In this document: positions 3,734 to 40,400 of the stretch, in pieces
Position numbering within the stretch: position 1 is the first letter of the stretch
Layout: the number at the start of each line of letters is the position of its first letter
Virus record (IMG/VR): IMGVR_UViG_3300045141_000480
Span: 1 to 40,400 of that record
Origin: a virus
Strand: one strand, 5' to 3'
DNA: 40,400 bases
Notes under the pieces: model-generated
Told to the model about the DNA's origin: nothing
Databases searched by the model: none
What the model saw: the letters and a program-made list of their open reading frames with translations, nothing else
Made by a program: the position numbers and the translations under genes

Positions 3734-4282
3734 TTGACGACGCAACCAAACACCCTTGAACAGCCCGTCGTACGAGAGCAAATCAAGGCGGCAATCCTTG
3801 ATGGCAAGTCGGATTCTGCTATCGCGAAGGTCCACGGCGTCACCCGCCAGGCGATTCACTTCTTTCGTCGCCGCCACGCAGCCGAACTCGCCCCGGTCAT
3901 CAAGGCCATCGAAAAGAGCATCGAAGACTACGCCATCGCTTCGAAGTTGCGGCGGGTGGCTGCGATGGATGACCGTTGGCAGCGAGGGATTGCGCTGATC
4001 CAGGCTCGTGCCGCTGACACCCGCTACCAAAGCGAACCGGGCTACTCAACCGGCATCATGGTTCATCGGCTCAAGTCTGTTGGGAGCGGTGACAGCGCGG
4101 AAATCGTAGACGAATTCGCCTTTGACTCTAGTCTTTATGCCTCCTTGCTGGCGCTGGAAACTGCTGTGTCAGACCAGATGGGCCAGACTCCGCGACCGGA
4201 CACCCACGTCGGCGACCAGAACATCTTTATCTTTGAGGTAATTGCCCCTCGTGACCACGGCGGCATCCCCCAACTCGGCTAA
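3734..4282 (+). CDS. terS: Terminase small subunit (putative)
   Basis: 182 residues from a TTG preceded by GGAGG at a spacing of about eleven. Residues ~12-50 form a helix-turn-helix (IKAAILDGKSDSAIAKVHGV then TRQAIHFFRRRH), the kind of DNA-binding head found in small terminase subunits. Helices follow that could oligomerise. It lies immediately upstream of the large terminase and overlaps it by about 40 bases. Small terminases are poorly conserved, so the call rests on the HTH plus position. It would recognise the packaging site and regulate the large subunit. Confidence 0.72.
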   Translation: MTTQPNTLEQPVVREQIKAAILDGKSDSAIAKVHGVTRQAIHFFRRRHAAELAPVIKAIEKSIEDYAIASKLRRVAAMDDRWQRGIALIQARAADTRYQSEPGYSTGIMVHRLKSVGSGDSAEIVDEFAFDSSLYASLLALETAVSDQMGQTPRPDTHVGDQNIFIFEVIAPRDHGGIPQLG

Positions 4283-16900: not shown

Positions 16901-17956
16901 ACCGACCTGAGTGACTACCGCAAGGCCTCCGACGCGTCGCACCAGACCAGCAAGGCCACGACCGCGCGCGAGGAGGACCTCTTCAACAAGGGCCAGAACG
17001 ACCAGGCCCTGCGCGACGCCTACCACGACGAGGGACAGCGCAACCTGGGCATCTCAGCCGCACTGGAGAACCAGTTCGCGGCCCAGTTCGCGGGTTTCGA
17101 CAAGAGCAAGTTCGACAAGGCGGTCGAGGGCTACTACGCGCTCGACAAGGCGCCGGAGAACCTCATACCCGAGGGTGCGCCCACCGGCGCCGGTTCCATC
17201 GACTTCGACAAGGTGGCCTCAGCCCAGAAGGACTACCTGGCAAACCTGCCCGCAGACCAGCGCCAGTGGGTCTCCGAGGCCCTACAGGTCGCCGAAGCCA
17301 ACAAGACGCCTCTGCACCAGGAGTACGACAAGTACATCGACGCCAAGAAGCAGGCCGGCTACTTCGAGACCCACATCGACCCCGTGACCAAGCGGCCTAC
17401 CGGGATCACGCCGCAAGAGCGCCAGGCCCTGGACATAGCCCACCCCGACCTCGACGTCGCTTCCTGGCGCTTCGGTTCGGTGGGTGGCAAGGCGGGCTCA
17501 GCCCTCAACAGCACCAAAGCGGTGCAGATGGCCCTGGCGACGCCGGACGCGCAGAACAAGGAGATTACCTACGCCGGCCTGCCGCGGCCGGTCAACCAGA
17601 GCCCAGACACCATCGCGATGTGGAACTACGCCAAGGGCCCGCTCGACTGGTATCTCACTCAGCTGCCCAACGGCCAGGACGCGGTCAACGAGGGCAAGAG
17701 GCTTGCGGTCGACAAGCAGGACAAGGAGTACCTCAAGCCGTTAGACCAGATGGACACCCAGCACCGCTCGACCATTACGGGCAACCTGCACCGTGCGGCG
17801 CTCAAGTCCGACCTGGGCGACGAGCTCGAGGCCTATCTGTATGCTTTCGGGGAGCGGACGAGCCTCACGACTCAGGCTGCGGCCGACAAGGCGGGCGAGA
17901 TTATCAAGAAGTACCACCTCGACCAGGTCAAGGCTCCAATGAAGAAGGCTGCGTAG
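10907..17956 (+). CDS. Giant internal virion / polyvalent protein with muralytic and ParB-like domains
   Basis: 2349 residues from a GTG. Order: a lytic transglycosylase/lysozyme-like domain (~45-140) with catalytic E80 in [14 protein letters not shown] and HGLFQ; Pro/Gln-rich linker; a small domain (~345-430) with [11 protein letters not shown] and [10 protein letters not shown] that I recall from phage virion proteins; a ParB/sulfiredoxin-like domain (~806-912) with DGQHRALAL; Pro/Gly linker (~930-1000); alpha-helical parts with coiled coil (~1180-1530); a conserved-looking region (~1540-1830) with a membrane segment near 1787-1810 ([17 protein letters not shown]); helical C-terminus. This matches large ejected proteins such as T7 gp16-type muramidases and Aravind-type polyvalent proteins. 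It probably opens the peptidoglycan and acts in the host on entry. Individual domain calls beyond the muramidase are weaker. Confidence 0.85.
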
Positions 17957-26966: not shown

Positions 26967-28748
26967 ATGGTAGATACCGCTCGCAGCGCAGCCTACCTGC
27001 TCAGCCTGCTCGCAACCGGCCAGCCGGAGCCCTTTGGGCAGACGACGTTTCTGGCCCAGGGGGCGCGAGACCTCATCGTCTCGCTGCCCCAGTTCCCCAG
27101 CTATGCCCCCAACTTCAACTTCCCGGCCGAGTCGCCCGCCGTCATCAGCGGCGGCGTGGCCGACCCCAACCGCAGGCTCACGGCAGGTGTATCTGCGACG
27201 GTCCGCTTCTCCACCGTGCCGGCTGGGGTCAACGGTTCCGACGCCAACCACTACCTCTACATCAATGACGGGGCCAGCTCTGAGGCCGTACTGATTACGG
27301 GCGGCACGGCCAGTCCGACTAACCGCTCAGACGCCACCATCACCTTCACGCCCGCGAATAACCACGCGGGTGCATGGACGATTACCAGCGCCTCCGGCGG
27401 GATTACCGAGGCTAATATCTCCGGCGGTGCCGGCGTCCCTGTCTACCTGGGCGCCGGCACCTACACCATCCAGGCCCCCATAGTCCTGCTTGCCGGCTCG
27501 GGCCTCATAGGCACGCTGGGCGGCACCTTCCTGGTGCAGAACTTCACCACCGGCAACCTGATTACGGTGAGCTCGCTGGGCGCTGCCTTCGTGGAAGTAA
27601 CCAACCTCTACATCCAGGCCACCGTCACCGTGGCCTCGGGCTATTACTTCGTCTATGCCCAGGACGCCAACGTAGACTGGTCGGGGCTCCATACGATTAA
27701 CGGCTATGGCGCCCTCTGGCTCAACGGCAGTCAGGGCCGGATTACCAAGTGCTTCCTCAGCGGCTTCTCCGGCTATGGGATCAGACTGGGTAGCACGGGT
27801 CACGCTGCCGGCCCCGTGATCAGTGACATCGTCATGACCACGAGCGTCGCAGCGGCGGTGAGCCTCTGGTGCGACGTGGGCCTGGTCAACCTGTCCAACT
27901 TCGACTTCCAGAACGGCAATGCCTCTCCCAGTGGCGGGCACATCCTCATCTCCGGCGGCTTCAGTGAGAGCACCTTTGAGGGCGGGATCCTGGACGGCGG
28001 CCTCTACCGCATCTCTGTCGTCCTCAATGCCAACACAACGTTCTCGCTCAAGTTCAGCAACATCCTCTGCACCGGCGGCGCCGCCTCCGATGCCTTCGGG
28101 GTCATTCTTCCCGCCAACGTAACGGCATGTGACTTCACCGACGTGCGTTTCTCCAGCGTGGGCAGTGCGACCAAGCAGCCCATCCTCATTGAGGGGGCCA
28201 ACGCACTCCGTTTCAGCACCTGTACCGCGGGTTCATTCGTAACTGCGAACTGCATCGCGGTGGGCTTTCTCACCTCTGCCAGCAAAGACATATCCTTTGA
28301 CGGCTGCACCTTCGGCTTCACCGCCACGGGCGTCCCAGAAACCAACCTGGACTATGCTTTTGAGTTCTCCAGCCTTAGCCACACCTACATAAAGGTCGTC
28401 GGCACAAGCTGCCTTAGTGCGGTGGCCCCCATGCACCAGCTGCCGGCAGCGCTAACCGGCTGGAAGGTCGCCAACAACCCCGGCATCGGCAACGTAGCCA
28501 AGTCCATTGCCGCAGCAGCAACCTTGACCTTCCCCGTCATGGACGACCAGGACACCCTGGTCGTCACCGGCAACACCAACATCGGCGCGGTGGCCGGCCT
28601 GCGCGAGGGCCAGACCGGCATCCTCATCTGCACCGGCACCCCGGCCTGGACCAACGGCGCCACGGTGGGCAGCCCGACCGTTACCCTCACGGCAAACGTC
28701 CCCGGCAAGTTCGCCTTTACGGGCGGGAAGATTTACGTGAGCGTCTAA
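26967..28748 (+). CDS. Tailspike, parallel beta-helix type
   Basis: 593 residues. VPVYLGAGTYTIQAPIVL near residue 155-170 is the entry motif of pectate-lyase-like beta-helix tailspikes. Then come many short turns of similar length rich in Gly, Ser, Asn and Thr (SNFDFQNGNAS, FEGGILDGG, LKFSNILCTGG), as expected for stacked coils. The last ~65 residues (VVTGNTNIGAVAGLREGQTG to the final beta strands) resemble a C-terminal trimerisation or adhesion tip. It probably binds and possibly cleaves surface polysaccharide; no catalytic residue can be named. Confidence 0.8.
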   Translation: MVDTARSAAYLLSLLATGQPEPFGQTTFLAQGARDLIVSLPQFPSYAPNFNFPAESPAVISGGVADPNRRLTAGVSATVRFSTVPAGVNGSDANHYLYINDGASSEAVLITGGTASPTNRSDATITFTPANNHAGAWTITSASGGITEANISGGAGVPVYLGAGTYTIQAPIVLLAGSGLIGTLGGTFLVQNFTTGNLITVSSLGAAFVEVTNLYIQATVTVASGYYFVYAQDANVDWSGLHTINGYGALWLNGSQGRITKCFLSGFSGYGIRLGSTGHAAGPVISDIVMTTSVAAAVSLWCDVGLVNLSNFDFQNGNASPSGGHILISGGFSESTFEGGILDGGLYRISVVLNANTTFSLKFSNILCTGGAASDAFGVILPANVTACDFTDVRFSSVGSATKQPILIEGANALRFSTCTAGSFVTANCIAVGFLTSASKDISFDGCTFGFTATGVPETNLDYAFEFSSLSHTYIKVVGTSCLSAVAPMHQLPAALTGWKVANNPGIGNVAKSIAAAATLTFPVMDDQDTLVVTGNTNIGAVAGLREGQTGILICTGTPAWTNGATVGSPTVTLTANVPGKFAFTGGKIYVSV

Positions 28749-30119
28749 ATGGCTGTAACGATTACCCGCACCCAGGTCCGCGGCGAGATGCTCACCCGTG
28801 TCCCGTTACTGGGGCGCCGGCTTACGGCAGACTCGATAGGGGCAAACACCCTCACCCACGCGGCCGAGTACGAGCGCCAGCGCGCCGGCCTGACCTCGTT
28901 CGAGGCGCAGTACATCCACCGCTATTTGCAGTCCGACCCCGACCGCTGGCGCCTGATCACGACCCTTAACCAGCCCACGACCGACGGCGTCGTCAACGTG
29001 GACGGGCCGGTCTACCCGGCGCCGGGACGCACGGACCTCGCCTATGAGCGCCTGATGGTGCACCCGGACGACATCAACTTCGCCATTGCCGAGGGTCAAC
29101 GGCGCCAGAAGGTGCTGACCAACATCGCCCTCGTGCGCGGCCACGACCTGGACATGGAGTTGGGCAACACCAACTACTGGGGCACGCCCGTTGCCCTGGG
29201 CAGCTCATCCCTGAATAACGCCAGCCTCACCAAAGTAAGCAACGACGTTTTCTCGGGCACGCAGGCGCTGACTTACGCAGCGACCGGGTCCGGCAGTTTG
29301 GCCCGCGGCGAACTGCTTTTCGTCATGCCCAACCGTCAGATCTTCGTTGCCATCATCGCCCGCGCCGGCCAGGGCACCTTCAACTTCAAGATTTACGACG
29401 CCAGTCACGGCGTCTACATCGGCAACACCCTGAGCATCACCGGCCCCTGCGATTACACCCTGATGTCGCAGCAGCTGATAATCCCCGCTGGCTGCACCGC
29501 GATCCAGTACGAGTTCAGCACGCTTGGCGCGGCGGACACGGCCGCCATCGACACCTGCTTCGGCCCCTATCAGGCGGGACAGACCGAGTACCCCTTGCAG
29601 TCGGCGTTCAATGAGGCCTACAAGCTGCGCTTTGTGCGGCCGGCCCAGTACCTGTTCTCGCTGGGCACGCCCGGCCTCTTCGACGCTTACAGCGCAACCT
29701 GGGCCGGCGACCTCACGAGCCCCGAGGACTGGAACGCTGAGATCTTCCGGCGCGACGTGAACTCCAACCGCATCCGTTTTGTGGCGAACTCCTATAACAA
29801 CCATAACGTGGGCTGGGGCCTGCCCAACGAGGGCGCCTTCATGTCCGCCAACATGCACCCGATCTGGCTCGCGATGGAGGCACAGGTCTCGGACTTCGAG
29901 CCGCTGCTTACAGAGGCCTCCCTAACCTCGCAGCCCCTGGACGAGTGCGCCTGCTTCTCCCTGCGCTCCCTGTTTGAGACCCTGGCCTCGCGCGAGCCCC
30001 AGAACCCGGCCTGGCCGCCGCTCCTGGCCGAGTACGCTGCCTGGGCCGCCGCCGAGCTTGTGGCCCGCCCGCCCCAGCCGATGCTGCGTCCCGTGCGCAT
30101 GCACCTCCAGCGAGTCTGA
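28749..30119 (+). CDS. Tail protein with carbohydrate-binding-like domain
   Basis: 456 residues. N-terminal ~110 residues are helical and Arg-rich. Residues ~135-270 look like a jelly-roll module beginning NTNYWGTP and continuing KVSNDVFSGTQAL, typical of CBM-like inserts. The C-terminal ~190 residues are helical and Trp/Pro/Ala-rich. Within the tail cluster it may connect the tail to the spike or bind glycans. No named family. Confidence 0.7.
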   Translation: MAVTITRTQVRGEMLTRVPLLGRRLTADSIGANTLTHAAEYERQRAGLTSFEAQYIHRYLQSDPDRWRLITTLNQPTTDGVVNVDGPVYPAPGRTDLAYERLMVHPDDINFAIAEGQRRQKVLTNIALVRGHDLDMELGNTNYWGTPVALGSSSLNNASLTKVSNDVFSGTQALTYAATGSGSLARGELLFVMPNRQIFVAIIARAGQGTFNFKIYDASHGVYIGNTLSITGPCDYTLMSQQLIIPAGCTAIQYEFSTLGAADTAAIDTCFGPYQAGQTEYPLQSAFNEAYKLRFVRPAQYLFSLGTPGLFDAYSATWAGDLTSPEDWNAEIFRRDVNSNRIRFVANSYNNHNVGWGLPNEGAFMSANMHPIWLAMEAQVSDFEPLLTEASLTSQPLDECACFSLRSLFETLASREPQNPAWPPLLAEYAAWAAAELVARPPQPMLRPVRMHLQRV

Positions 30120-30604
30120 TGAACGGGCCGCTCAACACCGTCGGCATCGCGTCTAACACCGGCCTGCGTTCCGTAGAGCGCTATGAGATGGTCCAGGCCG
30201 AGACGCGAACAAATACGGTTGTGCTCGCTCCCTCCACTCAGCTCGTCTGTACCATCGCCGCGACCAACCTCATCGTCTGGCAGGCGACCCTGTTCCTCGG
30301 CGGCAACGCTCCCGGCAACGTGAGCGTGCAGTGGACCACCCCGGCCACGCCTGCCTCCGGTGGATTACTTGTAGTCCCTGGAGGTGGGGCCTCAGCCGGA
30401 TACACTCTCGCGGCTGGCTATAACTCACCGCTTGTCCTGGTGCCCTTTGCTGCCGGTACTGATGTCCTGGTTGCGACCTTTGAGGGCTGGCTGCTCAACG
30501 GTGTCAACCCCGGCGAGTTCACCCTGAAATGGAGCCAGAACGTCGCCAACGCTACCCTTTCAAGCCTCCTGCTCGGCAGCTTCATGGAGGTGTGGCGACG
30601 GTGA
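30119..30604 (+). CDS. Small beta-rich tail protein
   Basis: 161 residues, ATG sharing a base with the previous stop. Uncharged beta-rich sequence (TNLIVWQATLFLGGNAPGN, TDVLVATFEGWLLNGV) ending in a short basic tail. Its 3' end carries the GGAGGTG that serves the next GTG start. Probably structural; no family recognised. Confidence 0.7.
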   Translation: MNGPLNTVGIASNTGLRSVERYEMVQAETRTNTVVLAPSTQLVCTIAATNLIVWQATLFLGGNAPGNVSVQWTTPATPASGGLLVVPGGGASAGYTLAAGYNSPLVLVPFAAGTDVLVATFEGWLLNGVNPGEFTLKWSQNVANATLSSLLLGSFMEVWRR

Positions 30605-32517
30605 CCAACCAGGCGGGCAACGACCCGACTACCGGGGCCTTTATACCCCCACCTCCCGGTACCCTGGGCACGGCCGACGTGGGCGCGCTCCTGCGCAACA
30701 CCCTGTTCAACGTCGATACCGACCCCGCGTCCCAGAACCAGCCCCAGGTCATCGACCTCGCGCGCCTCACCGGCAACAAAGGCTACGCCGGCTGCTCCTA
30801 CGTGCGCCTGCCCCTGAGCGATAACCGCAGCGGCCACAGCCAGACCGGCAAGTATTCCGCCGTCAACGTCAAGCGCGCCTCAGGCGGCCTCATTGTTGAC
30901 GACCCGGGCTACCTGCGCCTGCCCTTTATGACCACGGCCCAGGCCATGAACCCGCCCGCGGCGATTGACCGCATGGTCGCGGCCCGCTTCCAGAGCGGTT
31001 ATTACTTCACCGGCTACGAGATCAGCGGCACCAACCACCTCTGGCGCGAGACCTCGCAGACCGACCCCACAGAGGTCGTGGAGGCCACCTACGCGCCCAT
31101 AGCGGGGCCCAGCGTCGGTATCACCTGTATGGAGCCGATTGCGATCAACAGCACACCCTACCTCGCCATCGGCTACGAGCAGGGCGGCGCCGTGTCATGC
31201 CTCCAGGTGGTCTCGAGCATCGGTCCCTGGGTGGCATCGACAGCCCCGACCGGCGCCGCGCTGTCAATCTGGGGCATTATCCAGACCCCCATCGACGGCA
31301 ACGCCCTCTTGATTTACCAGGACCAGCCCGTGGGCGCGACTAACTCCGGCGCCATCACGGCGCTACGGACGGACGTTGGTCTTGGGTCTGTGACGCTTTC
31401 TCCGGCGCGGTCTACGGTCCCGCGCGGCGGTTACGCCGTCGGCCTCTCGGGCTGGGAGGGCGACGTCTACGCTTACTTCGTCGTGCCGACAGACCGTCCG
31501 GTGATGACCTTCAACAACATCAACTCCGACAAGGCCTCAGGCGCGCCCCGCGGCAAGCTCATCCGCACCGACCTGCGCGGCTACCTCGCGACCCCGGTCG
31601 ATGTGCCCCTGCGCTGGGTGACCTTCGTCACCAAGGTGCGCGGCGGCCTCGTGGTCTGTGACACCCAGACCCACTGGTTCCTCGACAAGAAGGGCTATCA
31701 GCACGAGGAACGCAGGATGCCCCTGTTCGACGACCTGCCGGCCAACTCGGACCGGCAGCAGGTCTGCTGCGGTCATTTTGAGAAGGACGGCCGTTTCTTC
31801 ATCGAGGTCAACGACACGATTGCCCAGGGCGGCGCCGGCAACACCCAGCGCTACTGGCTTGAGTGGGACTTCGACCTCTGGGCACCATCGCAGGCCTCCT
31901 CAGCCAAGACCCTCACCACCACCGGGGTGCAGAGCATCGGCGGCGCCTATCAGGCCTGGTCGCCCTTTACCAACTTCCTTCATTCACGCGCCGACGGCTC
32001 CTGGTGGCGCCAGTTCCAGCCCGAGCTCGGGGTCAACGGCTTTAACCTGCGCCACACCGCCGGCGCAGCCGCCGGCACCGGCTACCAGTACGAGCTCACG
32101 GAGAGCCTGACCTGGCCGGTGATGGACATCGACGGCCTCGAGGACCAGGCCAAGATGTGGGTCGGCGTCACCGGCCCCAAGCCGGGCAATGTCATTCAGG
32201 GCGGCCCCGCCGCGACGGTGCTAGTCGAGGAGCTGCTCTCCGGCGTCACCGGCTCGCCGCCCCTGGGTAAGGGAGCCCTCTTCGGTACGACCGAGCCCAC
32301 GGAGCGGGTGCCGCGGCAGGCAATCAAGGCCAACGCCTGGACCTACCAAATCCAGCCCAGGGTGACGGTAACCAGAGACAACGTGGTCGCCGACGCATCC
32401 CTGATGACTCCCAACGCCTTCGGCAACGCCATCTATCTGGAGTTTTTGTCGATTAAGAACCCGCTCATGGCGCCGGCTATGGAGGCGCTCAAGCACTATC
32501 TGGACCCGCAGCGCTAA
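30601..32517 (+). CDS. Large tail protein (putative nozzle/tubular component)
   Basis: 638 residues from the GTG at 30601, chosen for its GGAGGTG site and GTGA overlap; the longer frame runs inside the previous gene. Beta-rich with many Trp/Tyr pairs. Segments such as AGCSYVRLPLSDNRSG, GGLVVCDTQTHWFLDKKG and QRYWLEWDFDLWAP suggest a multi-blade beta fold like the tail tubular/nozzle proteins of podoviruses. Position between adhesins and lysis genes fits. The fold assignment is inference. Confidence 0.65.
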   Translation: MTNQAGNDPTTGAFIPPPPGTLGTADVGALLRNTLFNVDTDPASQNQPQVIDLARLTGNKGYAGCSYVRLPLSDNRSGHSQTGKYSAVNVKRASGGLIVDDPGYLRLPFMTTAQAMNPPAAIDRMVAARFQSGYYFTGYEISGTNHLWRETSQTDPTEVVEATYAPIAGPSVGITCMEPIAINSTPYLAIGYEQGGAVSCLQVVSSIGPWVASTAPTGAALSIWGIIQTPIDGNALLIYQDQPVGATNSGAITALRTDVGLGSVTLSPARSTVPRGGYAVGLSGWEGDVYAYFVVPTDRPVMTFNNINSDKASGAPRGKLIRTDLRGYLATPVDVPLRWVTFVTKVRGGLVVCDTQTHWFLDKKGYQHEERRMPLFDDLPANSDRQQVCCGHFEKDGRFFIEVNDTIAQGGAGNTQRYWLEWDFDLWAPSQASSAKTLTTTGVQSIGGAYQAWSPFTNFLHSRADGSWWRQFQPELGVNGFNLRHTAGAAAGTGYQYELTESLTWPVMDIDGLEDQAKMWVGVTGPKPGNVIQGGPAATVLVEELLSGVTGSPPLGKGALFGTTEPTERVPRQAIKANAWTYQIQPRVTVTRDNVVADASLMTPNAFGNAIYLEFLSIKNPLMAPAMEALKHYLDPQR

Positions 32518-32535
32518 CTAGAAAGGGAATCACAA

Positions 32536-32721
32536 ATGGCAGTATCTGTAGGAAGTTTCTTCTTGCTCATCGCGGCGCTGATCTTCCTGGCCCTGGCGAT
32601 CGACCTCTTCGCCATCAACGCCAAGGGCATCGACTGGAACTTCTTCGCCCACTTCTTCCTCTGTCTAGGGCTAATCTTCGGCGGCTGGGTTATCACGACC
32701 CTGAGACGCGCAGCGCCGTGA
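32536..32721 (+). CDS. Small membrane protein, holin candidate
   Basis: 61 residues with two hydrophobic segments (about 6-26 and 38-55) separated by a short polar loop (NAKGIDWNFF), and a basic C-terminus (TTLRRAAP). Size, two-TM topology and position just before the amidase endolysin are the usual signs of a class II holin. AAAGGG precedes the ATG. Holins time lysis by permeabilising the inner membrane. Confidence 0.7.
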   Translation: MAVSVGSFFLLIAALIFLALAIDLFAINAKGIDWNFFAHFFLCLGLIFGGWVITTLRRAAP

Positions 32722-32789
32722 ACGGACCGACGCTGGTAATTCTCCTGCTCATCGTCCTTCTGATGCTTCTGCTCCTGGGATGGCACTAA
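32718..32789 (+). CDS. Tiny single-TM peptide
   Basis: 23 residues from a GTG that overlaps the holin stop (GTGA); its own TAA overlaps the endolysin ATG (TAATG). Nearly the whole peptide is one hydrophobic helix (TLVILLLIVLLMLLLLGW). Coupling on both sides, between holin and endolysin, suggests a translated lysis accessory such as an antiholin or pinholin-like peptide; the role is inference. Confidence 0.55.
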   Translation: MNGPTLVILLLIVLLMLLLLGWH

Positions 32790-33499
32790 TGGTCTCGCCC
32801 GACATCATCCGGCTCTCACCCAACGTCAACAGCGCGCCCATGCCCGGGACGACGAGGACGGTGATTATTCACTGCACCCGCTCCGGCGTCTCGATGAACC
32901 CGAGCGAGTTTGAGGGCACGCTTAACTACATGGCGACCCCCGGCACGACCTCGAGCCACTGGGTCATCTCCCGCGAGGGGGTCAAGGCCCGGGTGGTCTA
33001 TGACCATCAAATGGCCTGGCACGCCGCGGCCGACAATGACAACTGCTGGGGCATTGAGAACGAACAGGGCGCGGAACAGGACGGCTTCACGGAGGCGCAG
33101 CTAGAGGCCTTGCTGGACGTCTGTAGCGGCTACTGCCTGGACTACGGCGTGCCGGTGGTGCACTGCGACGATTCGCGCGAGCCGGGCTTCATCGGCCATG
33201 AGGAGACCCTACAGGGCCAGTCCTACGGCAAGAGCGACCCCGGCGAATACTTCGACTGGGACTGGTTTATAGAGGCCCTGGAGGCACGTATGGCGTTCAT
33301 AGCTGGTGATGCAAACGGCGGGCTCGAGAAGCGCGGCAAGCAGGTCATCCTCTGGAACGAGGGGGTCGAGGTCTTCGCCTGGGGCGGACCGGACGACGGC
33401 GACACGCCCGGCCAGATGGCGAAGAACTTCGGCGGGGTCTGGCGCTGGCTGCTCAGGGACGAGGACGACTGGGCCCTCTGGGGGCCCAAGGGCGACTAG
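32789..33499 (+). CDS. Endolysin, N-acetylmuramoyl-L-alanine amidase
   Basis: 236 residues from the ATG at 32789 (ATG 32780 in frame would overlap more). Amidase_2 fold: VIIHCTRSG with zinc ligand H28, SSHWVISREG (H57), AWHAAADND (H78), GIENEQ, then GHEETLQGQSYGKSDPG with H137, K148 and D150 at the active site. It cuts the bond between MurNAc and the stem peptide. The C-terminal ~65 residues (VILWNEGVEVFAWGG, GGVWRWLLRDEDDWALWG) are Trp-rich and may bind the cell wall. No signal peptide, so it needs the holin. Confidence 0.92.
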   Translation: MVSPDIIRLSPNVNSAPMPGTTRTVIIHCTRSGVSMNPSEFEGTLNYMATPGTTSSHWVISREGVKARVVYDHQMAWHAAADNDNCWGIENEQGAEQDGFTEAQLEALLDVCSGYCLDYGVPVVHCDDSREPGFIGHEETLQGQSYGKSDPGEYFDWDWFIEALEARMAFIAGDANGGLEKRGKQVILWNEGVEVFAWGGPDDGDTPGQMAKNFGGVWRWLLRDEDDWALWGPKGD

Positions 33500-33696
33500 G
33501 GGTCAAGGTTTGTATACCTAAGATTCGGTACGCCCGGTATATCAATTTGCAATCGGCTTATGTCACGGGAGAGTATAAGAAACTGAGAAAGCCGCCCTAC
33601 AATTCAGCCCGCGACTAAGACCCCGCCTCCATAACCCTGAAATGACTCGGGAGGAGCTGAAATGAATCGGCGGATAGGACGATTGAAGCGTGAGAA
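33500..33696. other. Intergenic region between lysis genes and repressor
   Basis: About 200 bases, AT-richer than its surroundings. No clear terminator with a T run is visible for either strand. On the + strand there is a strong GGGAGGAG (33649-33656) followed by ATG at 33662; that start opens a 52-codon Arg-rich frame antisense to the repressor's 3' end. A 7-codon frame (33642-33665, MTREELK) stops in an ATGA overlap with it. TACAAT (33599-33604) is a weak -10 candidate. Confidence 0.4.
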
Positions 33697-34074
33697 TTAC
33701 CCTGGAATCCGAGCTCGGCCAGGAGTCGTGGCAATTAGAGGCCCCTGGCTTGCCGGCAATGCGCGAAGTAATCGAATCGCTGACTCTTGCAGGATGGGCA
33801 CAGCGCGAAGACGGCGATAAGCCGTCAGAAGCTCCCGCTCGTCCTCAGACAGGCCAACCGGCTCCGGCTCAATCTCAGCCCCCAACGAGCGCAGCAACTG
33901 AGCCACCGTCACCGTCCTCAGGTAATGAGGAATAGCATTGACCACGTCGAGGGTAGGCTGGCCCTTGCCTGATTCCCACTGAGAGAGAAGGGAGTCGGAG
34001 ACACCCAGAAGCTCCCCCAGCCTTACCTGGGTGAAGGGACGGCCCGTCGCAGGGTCCTCACTACGGGCGGGCAT
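33697..34074 (-). CDS. CI/XRE-family repressor
   Basis: 125 residues on the - strand. Residues ~14-50 form the HTH (FTQVRLGELLGVSDSLLSQW, then ESGKGQPTLDVV), a clear Cro/CI-type domain whose recognition helix carries SDSLLSQWE. The C-terminal part (LSEDERELLTAYRRLRAVP) is a helical tail rather than a LexA-type peptidase, so induction may not be by RecA self-cleavage. It is divergent from the early promoter. It probably represses lytic genes from the palindromes at 34100-34151. The overlapping + strand frame is treated as a shadow. Confidence 0.85.
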   Translation of the reverse strand: MPARSEDPATGRPFTQVRLGELLGVSDSLLSQWESGKGQPTLDVVNAIPHYLRTVTVAQLLRSLGAEIEPEPVGLSEDERELLTAYRRLRAVPILQESAIRLLRALPASQGPLIATTPGRARIPG

Positions 34075-34099
34075 CCCGTAGCACGGTCGAGAAGTGCTC

Positions 34100-34116
34100 T
34101 TCCAATATCACTGGAA
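34100..34116. promoter_or_regulatory. Operator-like inverted repeat
   Basis: TTCCA - seven bases - TGGAA, between the repressor start and the early promoter. The 17-bp length is typical of CI/Cro-type operators. Candidate repressor or RHH binding site. Confidence 0.45.
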
Positions 34117-34133
34117 ACATTCGCAGAAAAGCC

Positions 34134-34163
34134 TGGACAGACGTATACGTCGTATTCTATTAT
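34134..34163 (+). promoter_or_regulatory. Early promoter with embedded palindrome
   Basis: TGGACA (34134-34139), 18-base spacer, TATTAT (34158-34163). The spacer starts with a perfect 12-bp palindrome GACGTATACGTC (34140-34151), placed so that a bound protein would block RNA polymerase. The expected transcription start is near 34170, inside the GGGAGGAG ribosome site of the first early gene, so the leader is extremely short. Confidence 0.7.
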
Positions 34164-34180
34164 CTGCGGGAGGAGTTCCA

Positions 34181-34408
34181 GTGAAACAAAAACTAAGCGT
34201 ACCGATACCAGTAAGGCTCCCGCAGGACGTTCGGGACAATCTCCAGGAGGAATCGAATCTGACAGGCATACCCGTCTCCACCTTGATCCGGAGCTCAGTC
34301 ATGCGCGACAGACGTGGTCTCGTCGTGCCTGATGATTCCAGTAATCCTAAAGAAGATTCTCAGATTCTTCAAGGAGCAGATGCAGAAGAGGCCAGCAGGA
34401 ATGGCTGA
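34181..34408 (+). CDS. Ribbon-helix-helix regulator (Cro-like role)
   Basis: 75 residues from the GTG at 34181, with GGGAGGAG about five bases upstream. Residues ~4-38 (KLSVPIPVRLPQDVRDNLQE, ESNLTGIPVSTLIRSSVMR) read as a MetJ/Arc/CopG ribbon-helix-helix: a beta strand, helix A, turn G-I-P, helix B. The C-terminal part is acidic and disordered. As the first gene of the early transcript opposite the repressor, it probably has a Cro-like role in the switch. The longer frame upstream would start inside the promoter and is rejected. Confidence 0.75.
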   Translation: MKQKLSVPIPVRLPQDVRDNLQEESNLTGIPVSTLIRSSVMRDRRGLVVPDDSSNPKEDSQILQGADAEEASRNG

Positions 34409-34586
34409 GCTGCACAACCTCACCATCGCCCTTGCGGAGAGCGAAGGCGTGACCGTGGGCGAGGCCCTGGTCACGATCCGGCGCATTCACGAGCGACGGG
34501 TGCTCGTAGTGGTTTCAGCCCCGCTCCACATCGTCATCGGCCCAGTCCATCTCGTGCCCGAGGACGACGCGGACGACGCGGAATAG
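34401..34586 (+). CDS. Small hypothetical early protein
   Basis: 61 residues from the ATG at 34401, which overlaps the previous stop and has AAGAGG about nine bases upstream; an ATG seven codons earlier is possible. A helical start (ELHNLTIALAESEGVTVGEAL), a hydrophobic beta hairpin (RVLVVVSAPLHIVIGPVHLV) and an Asp-rich end. No family recognised. It is followed by an inverted repeat that may terminate part of the early transcripts. Confidence 0.6.
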   Translation: MAELHNLTIALAESEGVTVGEALVTIRRIHERRVLVVVSAPLHIVIGPVHLVPEDDADDAE

Positions 34587-34588
34587 CG

Positions 34589-34623
34589 AAAGACCCGCTG
34601 TGCCGGGAAGCGCGCGGGTCTTT
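34589..34623. terminator. Inverted repeat, possible bidirectional terminator/attenuator
   Basis: AAAGACCCGC (34589-34598) and GCGGGTCTTT (34614-34623), perfect over ten bases with a 15-base loop. A run of A before and T after the stem suits both strands, though the T run is short. It lies only 16 bases before the next early gene, so it may be a partial terminator within the early operon. Confidence 0.55.
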
Positions 34624-34639
34624 CTAAGGAGAAGTACAC

Positions 34640-34825
34640 ATGGAAGATACACCAACCACACGTAACCCCGAGCAGCAGCTGCTGATGAAGCGCTGGGTCG
34701 CGGGCGAGATTGACCTGGTCGAGTTCATGGCTCTCTGGCCCCGGGCCTGGGACGGGCACCGTCTCCAGGACGAGCAGGACGAGGCCGTCATGACGGCGGT
34801 GCTCTTCCTCCAGGTGCAGCGATGA
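34640..34825 (+). CDS. Small hypothetical early protein
   Basis: 61 residues with AAGGAG before the ATG. Acidic, helical, with Trp-rich middle (LMKRWVAGEIDLVEFMALWP). Ends in a 4-base overlap with the next gene. No family recognised; the composition would suit a small host-interaction or anti-defence protein, but there is no evidence. Confidence 0.62.
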   Translation: MEDTPTTRNPEQQLLMKRWVAGEIDLVEFMALWPRAWDGHRLQDEQDEAVMTAVLFLQVQR

Positions 34826-35088
34826 CCGCCAACGAGCGCCTGCTTGCGGCTGAGGCTGAGACCCGGGAAGAGGCGAGCTACCGCTACTCCAGGGGTAGCG
34901 AGTGGGACCACATCGCGGCCTGCGCCCACATCGCCCTCCCCGGCGGCGTGGTCATCGTGACTTACCAGCCCACCAGGGGCTGGGACTACGCCTACGCCGA
35001 GACCCCGGAGGGGCTCTGGGGCGCCTTTCCCAACCGCGAGATGGTGCTGCTGGCGATTGAGTGCCGGCTCGAGGGGGTGCCAACATGA
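34822..35088 (+). CDS. Small hypothetical early protein
   Basis: 88 residues, ATGA overlap on both sides. A helical N-terminus is followed by a beta-rich body (IALPGGVVIVTYQPTRGWDY). No family recognised. It sits in the early run ahead of the RecT-like gene. Confidence 0.65.
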   Translation: MTANERLLAAEAETREEASYRYSRGSEWDHIAACAHIALPGGVVIVTYQPTRGWDYAYAETPEGLWGAFPNREMVLLAIECRLEGVPT

Positions 35089-35750
35089 CCAACCTGATTA
35101 CGGCCGCCGACAGACTGAGCGCGCTGGGCCTGGAGGCCCTGACCCTGGAGCGCCAGCACCGCCTCGGTTCCCAGGAGCTGCGTACGGTGAGCCTGACGCT
35201 GCCCTTCGCGGTGCTTAAGGTCTGCGCCCGCTACGACGCCAAGACCGAAAATCGCATCCTGCTCTGGACTACGGCGACGCTCGAGAAGGCTCTGGGGGGC
35301 CGCAAGCTGCCGGTGCACCTGGCCTACTGGTGCGACTGGGAGGGACACCGGGTCAACCTGAGCCCCGAGGGCGCCCTGGCCCTGCTCACAAGCGGCGACC
35401 TGCCCGAGGACGTGAAGGCGTATCTGCGCGCTAAAGAGGCCGAGACCGCGGCGCAGGTAGCGCGCGACCGTGAGGACCAGGGGCTGTTCGACAGCCTCAA
35501 CCGCATCGACCGCAGCGCCTCTGACCGCAGCTTCCTGCTGGCCCGCCGCCATGTGCCCCGGCCCAGTGTCGAGCGTCTGTGCAACGCCCGACCGTTGGGC
35601 GCGACGCTCTCGACGGCGCCAGACGAGGCGCGCTGTGTACTCAAGCCGTGGCACCTGGGGACGGAGCCGCACCGCAACGCCCGTGGCGAAACCTGGGGTC
35701 TGGTAGAGCGTCCTATCGACCGCGTAGAGGAGGCGGTCAAGCCGTGGTAG
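35085..35750 (+). CDS. Hypothetical early protein
   Basis: 221 residues from the ATG at 35085 (GAGGGGG upstream, ATGA overlap). The body is alpha/beta with an Arg-rich C-terminal half (DRSASDRSFLLARRHVPRP). No catalytic motif recognised. The neighbouring recombination genes suggest a DNA-metabolism role, but this is only context. Confidence 0.68.
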   Translation: MTNLITAADRLSALGLEALTLERQHRLGSQELRTVSLTLPFAVLKVCARYDAKTENRILLWTTATLEKALGGRKLPVHLAYWCDWEGHRVNLSPEGALALLTSGDLPEDVKAYLRAKEAETAAQVARDREDQGLFDSLNRIDRSASDRSFLLARRHVPRPSVERLCNARPLGATLSTAPDEARCVLKPWHLGTEPHRNARGETWGLVERPIDRVEEAVKPW

Positions 35751-35833
35751 CGCTTCACGTCATCGGCTGGGGCCTCGTCGCCGGCGTCTGCACCGCGTTC
35801 CTGGAGCAGCAGTACCGGATGTGGCGCTCATGA
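35744..35833 (+). CDS. Tiny membrane peptide candidate
   Basis: 29 residues from a GTG seven bases before the previous stop, with AGGAGG upstream. One hydrophobic helix (LHVIGWGLVAGVCTAFLE) and a short polar tail; its TGA overlaps the ATG of the RecT-like gene (ATGA). The strong ribosome site and overlap on both sides favour translation. Confidence 0.5.
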   Translation: MVALHVIGWGLVAGVCTAFLEQQYRMWRS

Positions 35834-36963
35834 CCACCGTACGCGTCCCGTCGCGCACCCACGCCGGCCACTTCTACGACGTGTCTATCGGCATCGACGG
35901 CACGCTTATCTGTACCTGCCCCGCGAGTTTCAACCACTTGGAATGCTGGCATCAGCGTTTCGTGAAAGAGGAAATGATGACTAACGAAGCCTCGAAAGCC
36001 CTGGTCCCCGTCGTGGTCCAGCCGAGCACGGCGCTCTTGCCGACGAGCCGCGAGCTCGACCTGGTAGAGCGCGCCGCGGCGATGATTTATGCCGGCGGCG
36101 TCTCTCTGCCCAAGGAGCTCAACACCAAGGAAAAGGTCGCTGCGGTGATGCTCTACGGCCTCGAGCTCGGGCTCAGGCCGATGACGGCAATCCAGCACCT
36201 CTTCCTGATTAACGGCAAGCTCGGGGCCTCGGCCCAGGTTATGGCCGGGATGTGCATGGCTAAGGAACCGGACATCAGCTTTCCGGTCGAGCGGCTCGAC
36301 GCCCAGGTCTGCACGATGCGGATGATCCGCCCGTCGCGTGGGCTCAACGAGGTCATGACCGTGACCTGGGAGCAGATTAAGCGGGCCGGCCTCGACCGTA
36401 ACCCGATGAACCAGCAGTACCCCGAGGACCGTCTGCGCTATCACGTCGTCAAGCGCCTCTGCCGTCTCGTGGCGCCGGACCTCATCAACAACATGGACGA
36501 GGGCGTGCCGGTCGCGGGCCTGGGCGGTGGCAGCTGGCGCGAGGACAAGGAGCTTGCCGACGCCGACCTCTACAACGAGGGCGATGCGCCGCTGCTGGCC
36601 CCGGCCGTAGCGGCCCCAGCGCCGCCTGAGAAGCCCGTAGCGGCCCCGGACGAGCTCACCGCGGTCTACATGGAGCTGCTCGACGCACGGGGCAAGGACG
36701 CGGGCCTGGCGGTGATGGCCTGGGCCCTGGAGAGCTTCCAGCACGCGGCGGGTAAGAACGGGCACCTCGACCGCTCAAAGCTCACGGCCGAGGAGGGCGC
36801 AGAGGTGCTTGAAGAGATGCGCCGTTACATCCGCACCGGCATCGCCCGCTGCCCCGAGGACGGGCACGAGCCGACGATAAACCCCGATACGGCCCTTATG
36901 GAGTGCAGTCTCTGCGGCTACGCGATGGAGCAGCCGGAGCCCGTAGCCGTGGGCCTCTTCTAG
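35830..36963 (+). CDS. SWIM zinc finger fused to RecT-like recombinase with C-terminal zinc ribbon
   Basis: 377 residues from the ATG at 35830 (ATGA overlap). Residues ~5-45 hold a SWIM motif CTCPASFNHLECWH (C28, C30, C39, H41). Residues ~70-240 carry the RecT/Bet-like annealing core: AAMIYAGGVSLPKEL, MLYGLELGLRPMTAIQHLFL and INGKLGASAQVMAGM are typical of this superfamily. The end has a zinc site CPEDGH (C341, H346) and CSLCGY (C359, C362). RecT proteins anneal single strands in phage recombination. Paired start codons with GAGG just upstream lie between the SWIM and RecT parts (35973-35978), so a RecT-only product is possible. Confidence 0.82.
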   Translation: MTTVRVPSRTHAGHFYDVSIGIDGTLICTCPASFNHLECWHQRFVKEEMMTNEASKALVPVVVQPSTALLPTSRELDLVERAAAMIYAGGVSLPKELNTKEKVAAVMLYGLELGLRPMTAIQHLFLINGKLGASAQVMAGMCMAKEPDISFPVERLDAQVCTMRMIRPSRGLNEVMTVTWEQIKRAGLDRNPMNQQYPEDRLRYHVVKRLCRLVAPDLINNMDEGVPVAGLGGGSWREDKELADADLYNEGDAPLLAPAVAAPAPPEKPVAAPDELTAVYMELLDARGKDAGLAVMAWALESFQHAAGKNGHLDRSKLTAEEGAEVLEEMRRYIRTGIARCPEDGHEPTINPDTALMECSLCGYAMEQPEPVAVGLF

Positions 36964-37113
36964 CTACTGGGGGCGGCACCGGAGGGGCGGGAACCTCCGG
37001 CGCTGCCTGTAGGGGCATTCCGAGGGGAGTATCCGGTGCTTCGACCTCGGCCCCTACGGGTAGCGCTTTAGCAGCTTTAGCAAACGAAGGGACAGACGCG
37101 TGAGGGTACAGGT
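36964..37113. other. Structured non-coding stretch
   Basis: 150 bases without a convincing gene. Two hairpins: CCGGAGG (36979-36985) / CCTCCGG (36994-37000); and a larger one with arms GTAGGGG (37009-37015) + CCGAGG (37020-37025) against CCTCGG (37045-37050) + CCCCTAC (37051-37057). A tandem GCTTTAGCA x2 follows (37065-37082). There is no T run, so these are not simple terminators. They may shape expression of the lysozyme gene behind them. Confidence 0.5.
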
Positions 37114-37506
37114 CTGAGGCTCGCACTCGGTTTCGCAGTTACAGCGCTCATCGTCGTAATCGGAGAGGGTTATGGATTACCTGCTGCTAGGTCTGCTTAC
37201 GCCGCTCGTGCTGGCGTTGCACAAGACGCTCCGCAGCCGTGTGACGAAGCCTGCGTCAGGGCGCTCATCTGCTCACAGCCCTGGCCGTGCCGGGAGGCGC
37301 TTGAGGTCGCCGGCTGCGAATCTCGCTTCGAGCCGCTGGCGTACAACGCGGGCAACTACGGCATTTTCCAAATCGCATCGGTCCATGCAGCCCGGGTCGG
37401 TGGTCAATTGGAACGACTCTTTGACCCAGAAACAAACGTCGCAATTGCCTTTGGTCTCTGGCTTGAAAACGGATGGTCAATCTGGGCCTGTCGTCCCGGA
37501 GGCTAG
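37114..37506 (+). CDS. Lysozyme/transglycosylase-like protein with signal segment, non-ATG start
   Basis: 130 codons open from a CTG at 37114; no ATG, GTG or TTG exists in this frame between the upstream stops (37069, 37078) and the catalytic region. The N-terminus RLALGFAVTALIVVIGEG is a good membrane or signal segment. A Cys-rich middle follows, then the muralytic core: GCESRFEPLAYNAGNYGIFQ with catalytic Glu, FDPETNVAIAFGLWLENGWS and WACRPGG, a clear lysozyme-like pattern. The CTG overlaps the stop of a six-codon GTG frame (CTGA), like other junctions here. A -1 shift from the ATG at 37172, which has its own GGAGAGGG and a hydrophobic start (MDYLLLGLLTPLVLALH), is an alternative. Confidence 0.7.
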   Translation: MRLALGFAVTALIVVIGEGYGLPAARSAYAARAGVAQDAPQPCDEACVRALICSQPWPCREALEVAGCESRFEPLAYNAGNYGIFQIASVHAARVGGQLERLFDPETNVAIAFGLWLENGWSIWACRPGG

Positions 37507-37509
37507 GCC

Positions 37510-37947
37510 GTGACCGACCTTCCTGCGCGTTCGGTGACCCTGAGCCTGCCGTTCCCTTACAGGGAGCTGCACCCCAACGACCGGCCCCATTTCCACAAGA
37601 AGGCTGCTGCTGTCCGCACCTACCGCATGGAGGCGAAGGTCGAGGCCAAACGCGTCATGGGCACGACGTACCGCCCGGGCGAGTACCCGCTGCGCACCCC
37701 GGTGCAGGCCCAGGTGACGTTCACCGTCACGGACGAGAGGCAGCGCGACGAGGACGGCCTCATGGCGAGCCTAAAGCCCATGTGGGACGGCTTCGTGGAC
37801 GCGCGGTTGCTCCTGGAGGACCACAACAAGGTGCTGCACATCGGTGCGCCGCTCATCGTGCACGGGGATAAGGCGGGCGTCGTCGTGGTGCTCACGGAGC
37901 CGGGGATGGCGCTGCACCTGGAGACGGTAGCGGAGTGGGCGCTGTGA
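37510..37947 (+). CDS. rusA: RusA-family Holliday junction resolvase
   Basis: 145 residues from a GTG with GGAGG eight bases upstream. Starts with the family's LSLPFPYRELHPNDR strand-loop and has the acidic pattern RDEDGLMASLKPMWDGF...LLEDHNKV, giving D80, D82 and D104, which correspond in order and spacing to the metal-binding Asp residues of RusA. It resolves branched recombination intermediates before packaging and pairs logically with the RecT-like protein. The stop overlaps the next GTG. Confidence 0.85.
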   Translation: MTDLPARSVTLSLPFPYRELHPNDRPHFHKKAAAVRTYRMEAKVEAKRVMGTTYRPGEYPLRTPVQAQVTFTVTDERQRDEDGLMASLKPMWDGFVDARLLLEDHNKVLHIGAPLIVHGDKAGVVVVLTEPGMALHLETVAEWAL

Positions 37948-38198
37948 GGTGTAACCACGCCCCATGCGCCTGCTGTTGGCTCTGCTCGGACCAGGAGCCG
38001 TGGTGGCGCGAGGCACGCGTGCAGGCCGGCCTGGGCTACGACCCGCCGAACGCAGCGCAGACCATCGTCTGTCCCGTGGTGACGGTGCCCTGCAAGGAGT
38101 GTGGCGAGCAGGTGTGGACCCTGGCTGCGTTTGAGAACGACGACGGCACCTGGGTCTGTGAGTCGTGTATGTGCGCGCTTATCGAGGCGGGGGAATGA
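37944..38198 (+). CDS. Cys-rich zinc-binding small protein
   Basis: 84 residues from the GTG at 37944 (GTGA overlap). Three Cys groups: CNHAPCACCWLC at the N-terminus, CPVVTVPCKEC in the middle and WVCESCMC near the end, enough for two or three zinc sites. No specific family recognised. It probably binds zinc as a small nucleic-acid or protein adaptor in the replication block. Confidence 0.7.
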   Translation: MRCNHAPCACCWLCSDQEPWWREARVQAGLGYDPPNAAQTIVCPVVTVPCKECGEQVWTLAAFENDDGTWVCESCMCALIEAGE

Positions 38199-38470
38199 CG
38201 GGCGACTCCATAGACCGCCTCAAGGCCGACCTGCTTACGGAGCCGGAGGTCAGGGCGCATCTTGCGGCCGAGCTGGACGAGGAGGTGCAGCGCTTCCTCC
38301 TTGACGTCGTGCGGGTGGCGCGCCGGCTGAGCCAGATGGACAACGTCTGGGAAGCGAGACGCATCCTGGCCGACTGGGCCATTGCCGTCACCGACCTTAA
38401 AGAGCGGACCGGCCGGGAGCTGGCCGTAAAGAGCAGGCCTAAACCAACCCTTGAAGGCTTCAAGAGGTGA
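38195..38470 (+). CDS. Small helical hypothetical protein
   Basis: 91 residues from the ATG at 38195, chosen for its ATGA overlap; upstream in-frame codons lie within the previous gene. Helical and charged (ADLLTEPEVRAHLAAELDEE, VARRLSQMDNVWEARRILA). It precedes and overlaps the ATPase gene by four bases, so it may be a helicase loader or partner, but no motif shows this. Confidence 0.65.
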   Translation: MTGDSIDRLKADLLTEPEVRAHLAAELDEEVQRFLLDVVRVARRLSQMDNVWEARRILADWAIAVTDLKERTGRELAVKSRPKPTLEGFKR

Positions 38471-39753
38471 GCCCGCTGGCGAGTGCCAGCCCCTGGGACC
38501 CCTGCTACGTCCGCGAGGACGGTTGGGTCGTGCACCGCTATGGCCTGGCGACGGGCAACACTCTGCGCTTCGCCGCGCGTGACATACGCAAGGAGCGTAC
38601 CGGCGTACACGCCAACATCGGCATAAGCGTCAACTGGATAAGCCTGGCCTGGTCCAACTTCAACATTGAGCGCGACGAGGACCGGGTGCGCCTCGCGAAC
38701 AGCGCCTATAAGCACCTCGACCCGCAGAGCAACGCCCTGGACATCGCCGAGTTCCCCCAGAACGCGATGAAGCACGCCCTCGACCTCTTCTGTTATGGGC
38801 TCTGGGACGAAGAGGTGGCGGTCAACGTCGGCGGCTGGATGGCGGGCGATGCCAACCGGACCCCGGCCAAACGGCTTCTGGGCGACTACGTCCTGGCCGA
38901 CGCCGGCACCATCCTCCATGCCCCGCCGGGGATGGGTAAGTCCTACACCGCCCTGGCCTGGGCGGTGAGTCAGGCCAACGGGGTCGAGAAGATCTGGCGG
39001 GTATACGACGCGGCTCTGCCTCTCTACATCAACCTGGAGCGCTCTGCCGGCTCAATGGCGGGACGCCTGGCGCGGGTAAACGTCGCCCTGGGGTTACCCG
39101 CTGAGACACCGTTGCCCTTCCTCAATGCCCGTGGCCGGACCCTGTCGGACGTCTACGAGGCGGCGAAGAAGACGGTGGAACAGGAGCGGGTCACCGTCTG
39201 CTACCTCGACTCGATAAGCCGGGCCGGGGCCGGCTCGATGAACGCCGACGACGTAGCCAACCGGATCATGGACATGCTCAACGCCCTGACCCCGACCTGG
39301 GTAGCGGTGGCGCACTCGCCCAGGGCCGACGACTCCCACGTCTTCGGCTCGCAAATGTTCGACGGTGCCGCCGACCTGGTCATCCAGCTGCGGGCCCAGC
39401 CCAGCCGGGACAAGCAGGCAACCGGGATCAGTCTCCAGGGCACAAAAGCCAACGACCTGCCGAAGGCGCCTATGTCCATCCATGTCTACGAGTGGGCCGC
39501 TGACGGCCTCCGGTCGATCCGGCGTGGCGCCCCTGGGGAGTTTGCCGAGCTCGACGCCAACCAGCGCCGTTCGTTGGAGGAGGAGATCAGTCTGCTGATT
39601 CAGTACCAGGGGCCAATGACCGGCACCCAGATTGCCGACGCCCTGGGGCGCAACCGGTCAAACATCGCCGCTTTTCTCGCGGGCAACAACACGTTTGAGC
39701 CCGAGCGGAGGGGTCGCGAGATGCTCTACAGATTCAAAACAGGGGGGTTTTAG
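38467..39753 (+). CDS. RecA-fold ATPase, RepA-like replicative helicase
   Basis: 428 residues from a GTG (GTGA overlap). Walker A HAPPGMGKS (151-159), a following LYINLERS strand, Walker B VCYLDSIS (244-251) and a later VAVAHSPRADDSHVFGSQMF sensor region match the AAA_25/RepA type of hexameric helicase. The last ~60 residues form a winged helix (GPMTGTQIADALGRNRSNIA). The N-terminal ~130 residues are an extra domain. No primase, polymerase or DnaB loader was found nearby, so it probably starts replication with host enzymes. The repeat cluster directly behind it is the likely target. Confidence 0.82.
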   Translation: MSPLASASPWDPCYVREDGWVVHRYGLATGNTLRFAARDIRKERTGVHANIGISVNWISLAWSNFNIERDEDRVRLANSAYKHLDPQSNALDIAEFPQNAMKHALDLFCYGLWDEEVAVNVGGWMAGDANRTPAKRLLGDYVLADAGTILHAPPGMGKSYTALAWAVSQANGVEKIWRVYDAALPLYINLERSAGSMAGRLARVNVALGLPAETPLPFLNARGRTLSDVYEAAKKTVEQERVTVCYLDSISRAGAGSMNADDVANRIMDMLNALTPTWVAVAHSPRADDSHVFGSQMFDGAADLVIQLRAQPSRDKQATGISLQGTKANDLPKAPMSIHVYEWAADGLRSIRRGAPGEFAELDANQRRSLEEEISLLIQYQGPMTGTQIADALGRNRSNIAAFLAGNNTFEPERRGREMLYRFKTGGF

Positions 39754-39973
39754 ACGTGTTTTTTGATGTGTTGCCCTCCTATGCGTTGCCCAACAGGTCA
39801 GACGGGCAACACATCGGGCAACACATGGAGGACCGCCGGCCGCTTTTCAGATTCAGAATTGGGCAATTGATGTGTTGTTGCCCATGTGTTGCCTTCCTAG
39901 AGAAAGAAGTGTTGCCTTTTTCTTTCTCTATAGGGCAACAACACATCAGGTTTTTAGAGGAGGGAGGGGACTG
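39754..39973. other. Iteron-like repeat cluster, candidate replication origin
   Basis: About 220 bases, AT-rich relative to the genome, immediately after the ATPase gene. The motif GATGTGTTGCCC or a variant occurs at least eight times: forward at 39765-39776, 39782-39791, 39869-39883 (with an extra TTG), 39883-39894 and 39907-39917; reverse at 39804-39815, 39816-39827 and 39933-39947 (with the extra TTG). The two longer variants are exact reverse complements, 49 bases apart, and enclose a perfect hairpin (39898-39930). Iterons beside a replication ATPase suggest an origin or an autoregulatory operator. No gene is evident; the long - strand frame across it is rejected. Confidence 0.65.
39898..39930. 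repeat. 11-bp perfect inverted repeat with a motif copy in its loop
   Basis: Arms TAGAGAAAGAA (39898-39908) and TTCTTTCTCTA (39920-39930); the 11-base loop carries GTGTTGCC. The arms are purine and pyrimidine runs, and the whole is flanked by the inverted long motif copies at 39869-39883 and 39933-39947, giving a nested dyad. Confidence 0.85.
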
Positions 39974-40225
39974 ATGCAGCTCTATTTCGACGGCTGGTAC
40001 GCCTACGAAGAGGACGCCCGCGGCTGTCTCGACATGGTCGAGGACATGGGTGCTTACCCGGTCGGCCTGGTCGAGTCGGGCTTCAGCAACTGGGGCATCC
40101 TCTACTGGTCGAGCACAACCCTCTTCGCCAACCACGTCCTCGACGCTGACAACGCAATCGCAAGCGTGCTCAGGCGAGGGGCCGCCGGCACACAGCCAGG
40201 CGTAGCGAGGGAGGAGACGCGATGA
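39974..40225 (+). CDS. Small hypothetical protein
   Basis: 83 residues with a long purine ribosome site (GAGGAGGGAGGGG) before the ATG. Acidic, aromatic-rich first half (LYFDGWYAYEEDARG), compact alpha/beta body, basic end. Not recognised. First gene after the repeat cluster, so it may be expressed from a promoter in it. Confidence 0.65.
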   Translation: MQLYFDGWYAYEEDARGCLDMVEDMGAYPVGLVESGFSNWGILYWSSTTLFANHVLDADNAIASVLRRGAAGTQPGVAREETR

Positions 40226-40362
40226 CACAACAGCAGCAGATTGCGGTGCTAACGGCCAAGGTGGCACGTCTGGAGGCACAGGTGGCGCAACTCATGCGAG
40301 AACGTCCTGCTGTGGTAGGGAATCCCTTCACGCCGAGTCCGCTGCTAGGTGGACCACGATGA
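40222..40362 (+). CDS. Tiny coiled-coil protein spanning the circular junction
   Basis: 46 residues, ATG overlapping the previous stop. A leucine/valine heptad stretch (IAVLTAKVARLEAQVAQLM) predicts a short coiled coil; the tail is Pro-rich. Its 3' end is duplicated at bases 1-89 because of the terminal overlap, and its TGA overlaps the start of the 86-649 gene (repeated at 40359). Confidence 0.65.
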   Translation: MTQQQQIAVLTAKVARLEAQVAQLMRERPAVVGNPFTPSPLLGGPR

Positions 40363-40400
40363 CTGACATGACCACGCCGGGAGCGGGTGAGGGGGAGCGG
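40274..40400. repeat. Terminal redundancy, right copy
   Basis: Identical to bases 1-127 in direct orientation; see the left copy. Joining the two gives one continuous run of overlapping genes across the junction. Confidence 0.95.

Follow-up and report, generated by a model that had tools for sequence, protein, structure and literature searches.

DnaB- and RepA-type ring helicases are usually brought to replication origins by other proteins. The RepA helicase of RSF1010 is loaded at an origin that has been melted by the separate protein RepC (PMC8965321). A C-terminal winged helix has been described on RepA-type ATPases in primase fusions, where a role in origin recognition was proposed (PMC5862659). 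In SaPI Rep, the C-terminal domain recognises iterons that lie directly downstream of the rep gene itself, and Cch2 has been shown to bind such repeats (PMC7581432). Here we analyse a phage locus in which a cluster of short repeats follows the gene of a RecA-fold ATPase. Very probably, phage replication starts at this cluster, which the DNA-unwinding enzyme encoded beside it would recognise.

The window, by which we mean the whole 40,400-nucleotide stretch analysed (IMG/VR record IMGVR_UViG_3300045141_000480), carries an exact 127-bp direct terminal repeat (1-127 = 40274-40400), and is therefore a complete, circularly closing genome of a temperate phage. Its recognisable genes are listed in Table 1 with the features of the locus; a 2349-aa ORF at 10907-17956 had no PHROG match. 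Neither a TOPRIM nor a Prim-Pol homologue was identified in the window, so that the phage presumably uses the primase of its host.

Table 1. Positions of genes, repeat copies and structural elements in the window
Feature	Position	Strand	Basis or remark
Integrase gene	1362-2495		
Large terminase gene	4242-5723		
Repressor-like HTH gene	33697-34074	minus	
RecT-like gene	35821-36963		
RusA-like gene	37510-37947		
AAA_25 (RepA/DnaB-type RecA fold) ATPase, 428 aa, initiator-helicase candidate	38467-39753	+	Pfam AAA_25, E 2e-14
Winged-helix domain, aa 370-423	39574-39735	+	DSSP of AlphaFold model
Further motif copy GTGTTGTTGCCC, TTG insertion, within ATPase gene	39681-39692	-	
Iteron copy 1, GATGTGTTGCCC	39765-39776	+	
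Iteron copy 2, TATGCGTTGCCC, degenerate	39780-39791	+	
Iteron copy 3, GATGTGTTGCCC	39804-39815	-	
Iteron copy 4, CATGTGTTGCCC	39816-39827	-	
Iteron copy 5, extra TTG, outer dyad left arm	39868-39883	+	100% complementary to 39933-39948
Iteron copy 6, CATGTGTTGCC	39883-39893	+	
Inner hairpin, 11-bp perfect stem (39898-39908 / 39920-39930), 11-nt loop (39909-39919)	39898-39930	+	
Iteron copy 7, GAAGTGTTGCC, displayed in hairpin loop	39906-39916	+	
Lowest-GC 40-bp window of genome, candidate unwinding element	39917-39956		32.5% GC, tied with 34330
CCCTATA element	39929-39935	-	overlaps CCC end of right-arm iteron
Iteron copy 8, extra TTG, outer dyad right arm	39933-39948	-	

The initial annotation had described at least eight copies of a short motif, in both orientations, in the 220-bp gap behind the ATPase gene (39754-39973), and (G)ATGTGTTGCC(C) was indeed located there at eight places, some in each orientation, spanning 39765-39948. 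It had also noted that the two copies with a TTG insertion are exact reverse complements of one another around an 11-bp hairpin that holds another copy in its loop; this too was borne out, with 16 of 16 positions matching between the arms and the 11-nt loop containing GTGTTGCC. The heptamer TGTTGCC occurs 18 times in the 40.4-kb record against 5.4 expected, an approximately threefold excess that is due in good part to the gap, which holds seven of the 18. None of 20,000 random placements brought seven of 18 sites within 220 bp, and the clustering is not due to chance. When ATGTGTTGCC was sought with up to one mismatch, it was found six times in the gap and once elsewhere in the window. Both a site-specific cluster of short repeats and an AT-rich region beside the repeats (the lowest-GC segment, at 39917), as expected of an iteron-type origin, are therefore present. 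Folded as single-stranded DNA, the dyad reached -24.5 kcal/mol (z -7.4; none of 200 shuffles was as good), and it was the most structured segment of the 12.4 kb scanned (28000-40400).

The neighbouring gene product proved to be, as annotated, a RecA-fold ATPase with a winged helix. It has the AAA_25 domain and the Walker A motif (APPGMGKS) that characterise the RepA/AAA_25 replicative helicases, while a search for the cores seen in SaPI Rep helicases (DUF927, D5/Primase_Cterm) returned AAA_25 only. An AlphaFold model built from 22 aligned sequences (pLDDT 86.9) gave a confident RecA core followed by a C-terminal winged helix, and the closest PDB folds were DnaB, RadA and KaiC. By DSSP the winged helix consists of helices at residues 370-381 and 386-393, a recognition helix at 397-406 and two wing strands. 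The residues NRSN (396-399) covary with the repeat sequence, as described below.

The protein had no match at E 1e-5 among approximately 50,700 phage records, no match at E 0.01 in a PDB sequence search with a six-member profile, no name in NCBIfam, and no relative at E 1e-3 in the bacterial and archaeal genome contigs scanned. Approximately 50 relatives were fetched from viral contigs, and 50 loci, the window included, were analysed. In three of them (L010, L030 and L033) TOPRIM/DnaG-zinc primase domains are fused to the same ATPase core, a fourth (L034) is a fusion of Prim-Pol, PriCT-1 and AAA_25, and in L078 a separate TOPRIM gene lies just upstream of the ATPase gene. These fusions and this neighbour place the ATPase family in replication, and a helicase activity is predicted for it.

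In many of these relatives, as in the window, repeats lie directly downstream of the gene of the candidate initiator-helicase, which is the arrangement of SaPI Rep and its ori. When repeats were scored on both strands and the 330 bases after the ATPase stop codon were ranked against the rest of the same locus, they fell within the top 5% in 17 of the 50 loci (2.5 expected; p 1.5e-10, an approximate value because a few locus pairs are near-copies). Of 32 loci ranked by DNA secondary structure in 280-nt blocks, 21 had the site behind the ATPase among the top 5%; for L036 a distant cluster was scored in place of that site. Many relatives likewise have inverted repeats and stable dyads here, with stems of differing sequence, and the nested dyad, which the initial annotation had called unusual, is not confined to the present phage. 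The repeats themselves differ among the loci. The GTGTTGCC type was found in the window and in L003, L007, L070 and L076, GTTGTTG together with TGTTGCC in L008 and L009, ATGTGTG in L010, and ATGTGTGGT in L024 and L025; other types, among others, were GTGTTCCC (L054), ACGTGTCCCC (L029), ATGTGTAAT (L033) and GATGGGCA (L034). About one third of the 50 relatives have no cluster behind the gene, mainly the branch of L016 and L039-L044 together with L027, L030, L035, L037, L038 and L057, so that the layout is common, not universal. Within that branch, the clusterless L016, L039 and L041-L044 have an altered Walker A motif, ALPKQAKS or ALPKQGKS as against APPGxGKS, and L040 has no winged helix at all. 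Most hits of a DNA-pattern search for the dyad in the viral contigs arose by chance or from coding sequence and had no ATPase with them (L012-L015, L018), and of the 26 places returned by another such search only L007, L017, L019 and L096 were in phages known to carry it.

We then compared the repeat sequence with the start of the recognition helix, where the window has the pattern N-R-x-N. At least three copies of TGTTGCC within the 330 bp were present for all eight N-R-x-N proteins and for one of the 42 others (Fisher 1.7e-8, with the class framed after part of its members had been seen); the sole exception, L071, has TGTTGCC at an unrelated place. On a tree built from the ATPase core, with the winged helix omitted, the eight proteins are not monophyletic (AU p 0.0007), and five changes are required to explain the label. 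Three independent pairs lie on well-supported branches and all are concordant, and with only three such switches a tree-aware sign test (p 0.25) cannot reach significance. Over all classes, the general correlation between helix and repeat was significant and weak (partial Mantel r 0.10, p 0.01). Individual loci are instructive. L010 falls inside a clade beside L003 (62% identical) and L007, yet it has the helix PRHEVA and the repeat ATGTGTG. L036 was checked for TGTTGCC because its helix is NRSN; it has no cluster behind the ATPase and at least 10 GTTGCC-type copies approximately 5 kb away, in a dense GATGTGTTGCCC cluster (L036:11901-12260) between the early region and terminase-like genes, which indicates a link to the helix and not to position alone. 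Two proteins from a later scan, L070 (NRAN) and L076 (NRTN), agree with the rule. Across the dozens of related phages compared, a change of repeat tends to go with a change in the segment of the enzyme expected to read it; this pattern suggests that a single protein may both find and open the origin.

One element is shared across repeat types. CCCTATA, which in the window lies within the lowest-GC 40 bp, was the top enriched 7-mer of the post-ATPase regions, being present in 11 of 31 partly related loci against 0.25 expected (p 8e-16; 5,097 k-mers compared). In many loci it adjoins the end of the repeat, whatever the type of the latter: GTGTTGCC-CCCTATAGA, GTGTT-CCCCTATATA, TTGCGC-CCCTATAGT and CGTGTCC-CCCCTATAG. 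It may mark the start of unwinding; a promoter and a host factor site are the other candidate roles.

The cluster sits between two co-directional genes, just 5' of a good ribosome-binding site, and autoregulation is common among initiators. It could accordingly be an operator through which the ATPase or a phage repressor controls the downstream operon, from 39974 onwards, with no origin function. We consider this unlikely, since no sigma-70-like promoter was found within 38400-40400, the repeat type tracks the helix of the replicative ATPase and not that of a repressor, and the L036 cluster lies some 5 kb from its ATPase gene, with early genes on one side and terminase-like genes on the other. 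The same scan for promoters and terminators found nothing at the cluster, which bears as well on the idea that the dyad serves mainly to terminate transcription of the early operon, or as a hairpin for its processing, with the repeats incidental. Stable dyads are common at gene ends, and the variation in stem sequence among relatives would suit such a role; no T-run follows the stem, there is no terminator-like match on the + strand, and Rfam returned no curated RNA family at threshold, only chance matches below it. Moreover, the arms of the dyad are the repeats themselves, and these covary with a DNA-binding helix. A terminator is thus a very improbable explanation.

Repeat clusters beside ATPase genes are also known as centromere-like sites, and if the ATPase bound the cluster for partition or packaging, with no origin involved, the locus would have a similar appearance. 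This seems very improbable for an ATPase that resembles DnaB and RadA (AAA_25) and is not of the ParA type, and that is fused to primases in relatives; in addition, a phage with an integrase need not partition. The initial annotation had proposed an origin as the candidate reading and had named three observations that would count against it: a motif frequent elsewhere in the genome, relatives that keep the ATPase without the repeats, and a GC-skew minimum far from the site. The candidate came through on the first two, the motif being infrequent elsewhere and many relatives keeping a cluster behind the ATPase. The skew did not support the site: the minimum lies at 32,972, approximately 7 kb from the cluster, although in lambda, treated the same way, the detrended minimum lies 0.8 kb away from the origin known there, and we did not retain GC skew as an origin marker here. 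The minimum lies close to the border with the early genes and with the repressor-like gene.

Taken together, it is likely that 39765-39948 is the origin and that the neighbouring ATPase serves as both initiator and replicative helicase. In the mechanism we propose, the RecA-type ring ATPase would use its C-terminal winged helix to bind GTGTTGCC repeats of either orientation, a step that the covariation of helix and repeat favours. Once gathered on the inverted copies, several subunits might then bend or unwind the AT-rich core on the CCCTATA side, and the ring could load itself by closing on the exposed strand and unwinding away from the origin, with host primase and polymerase following. Extrusion of the hairpin is likewise predicted. 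A more tentative and rather doubtful extension is that phages have a large family of RecA-type (RepA/DnaB-like) ring helicases that need no separate initiator or loader to locate their own origins, open them and load there, that specificity comes from a few residues of the C-terminal recognition helix coevolving with the repeats, and that the extruded nested hairpin, with a repeat in its loop and CCCTATA at its base, is the loading platform. If this were true, a ring that carries the origin-reading domain itself would amount to a minimal initiation system of one protein, the many natural helix-repeat pairs would make a recognition code directly testable, and uncultivated phages would gain an origin handle.

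The initial annotation had likened the locus to lambda O and pSC101 RepA. The comparison holds loosely, in that lambda too has an initiator and repeats beside the early replication genes of a temperate phage. In lambda, however, the repeats are within O, O is without an ATPase, and the helicase is that of the host, loaded by P; in the window the cluster follows the gene and the protein is itself an ATPase. RSF1010 RepA, with RepC and oriV, and gp46 of phage F13 belong to the same class of RecA-type RepA/AAA_25 hexameric helicases, and the RSF1010 origin is also repeat-bearing (PMC8965321). The window ATPase differs in having a winged helix of its own. The RSF1010 replicon has separate genes for the RepC initiator and the RepB' primase; among the genes recognised in the window none is of the RepC type, and none has TOPRIM or Prim-Pol homology. 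PrimQH and related primase-RepA-winged-helix fusions share the RepA-type ATPase and the C-terminal winged helix, and the Prim-Pol, PriCT-1 and AAA_25 fusion among the relatives resembles them, whereas the window protein is without a primase domain and iterons are unmentioned in PMC5862659. Searches of a paper collection with few subscription papers returned no RecA-type helicase that has been characterised as carrying an iteron-binding domain itself. SaPI Rep, and with it SCCmec Cch2, is the closer match: helicase and origin-binding domain are in one protein, the DNA-binding domain is C-terminal, and short repeats lie directly 3' of the gene, with binding predicted in the case of the window. 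Their helicase cores are DUF927 and D5-like, whereas the motor in the window is a RecA-type AAA_25, and its repeats, unlike those of SaPI Rep, point both ways around a nested hairpin. By analogy, the best reading is that the window ATPase works like SaPI Rep on an unrelated motor, a RepA/DnaB-type helicase that would be its own origin-binding initiator.
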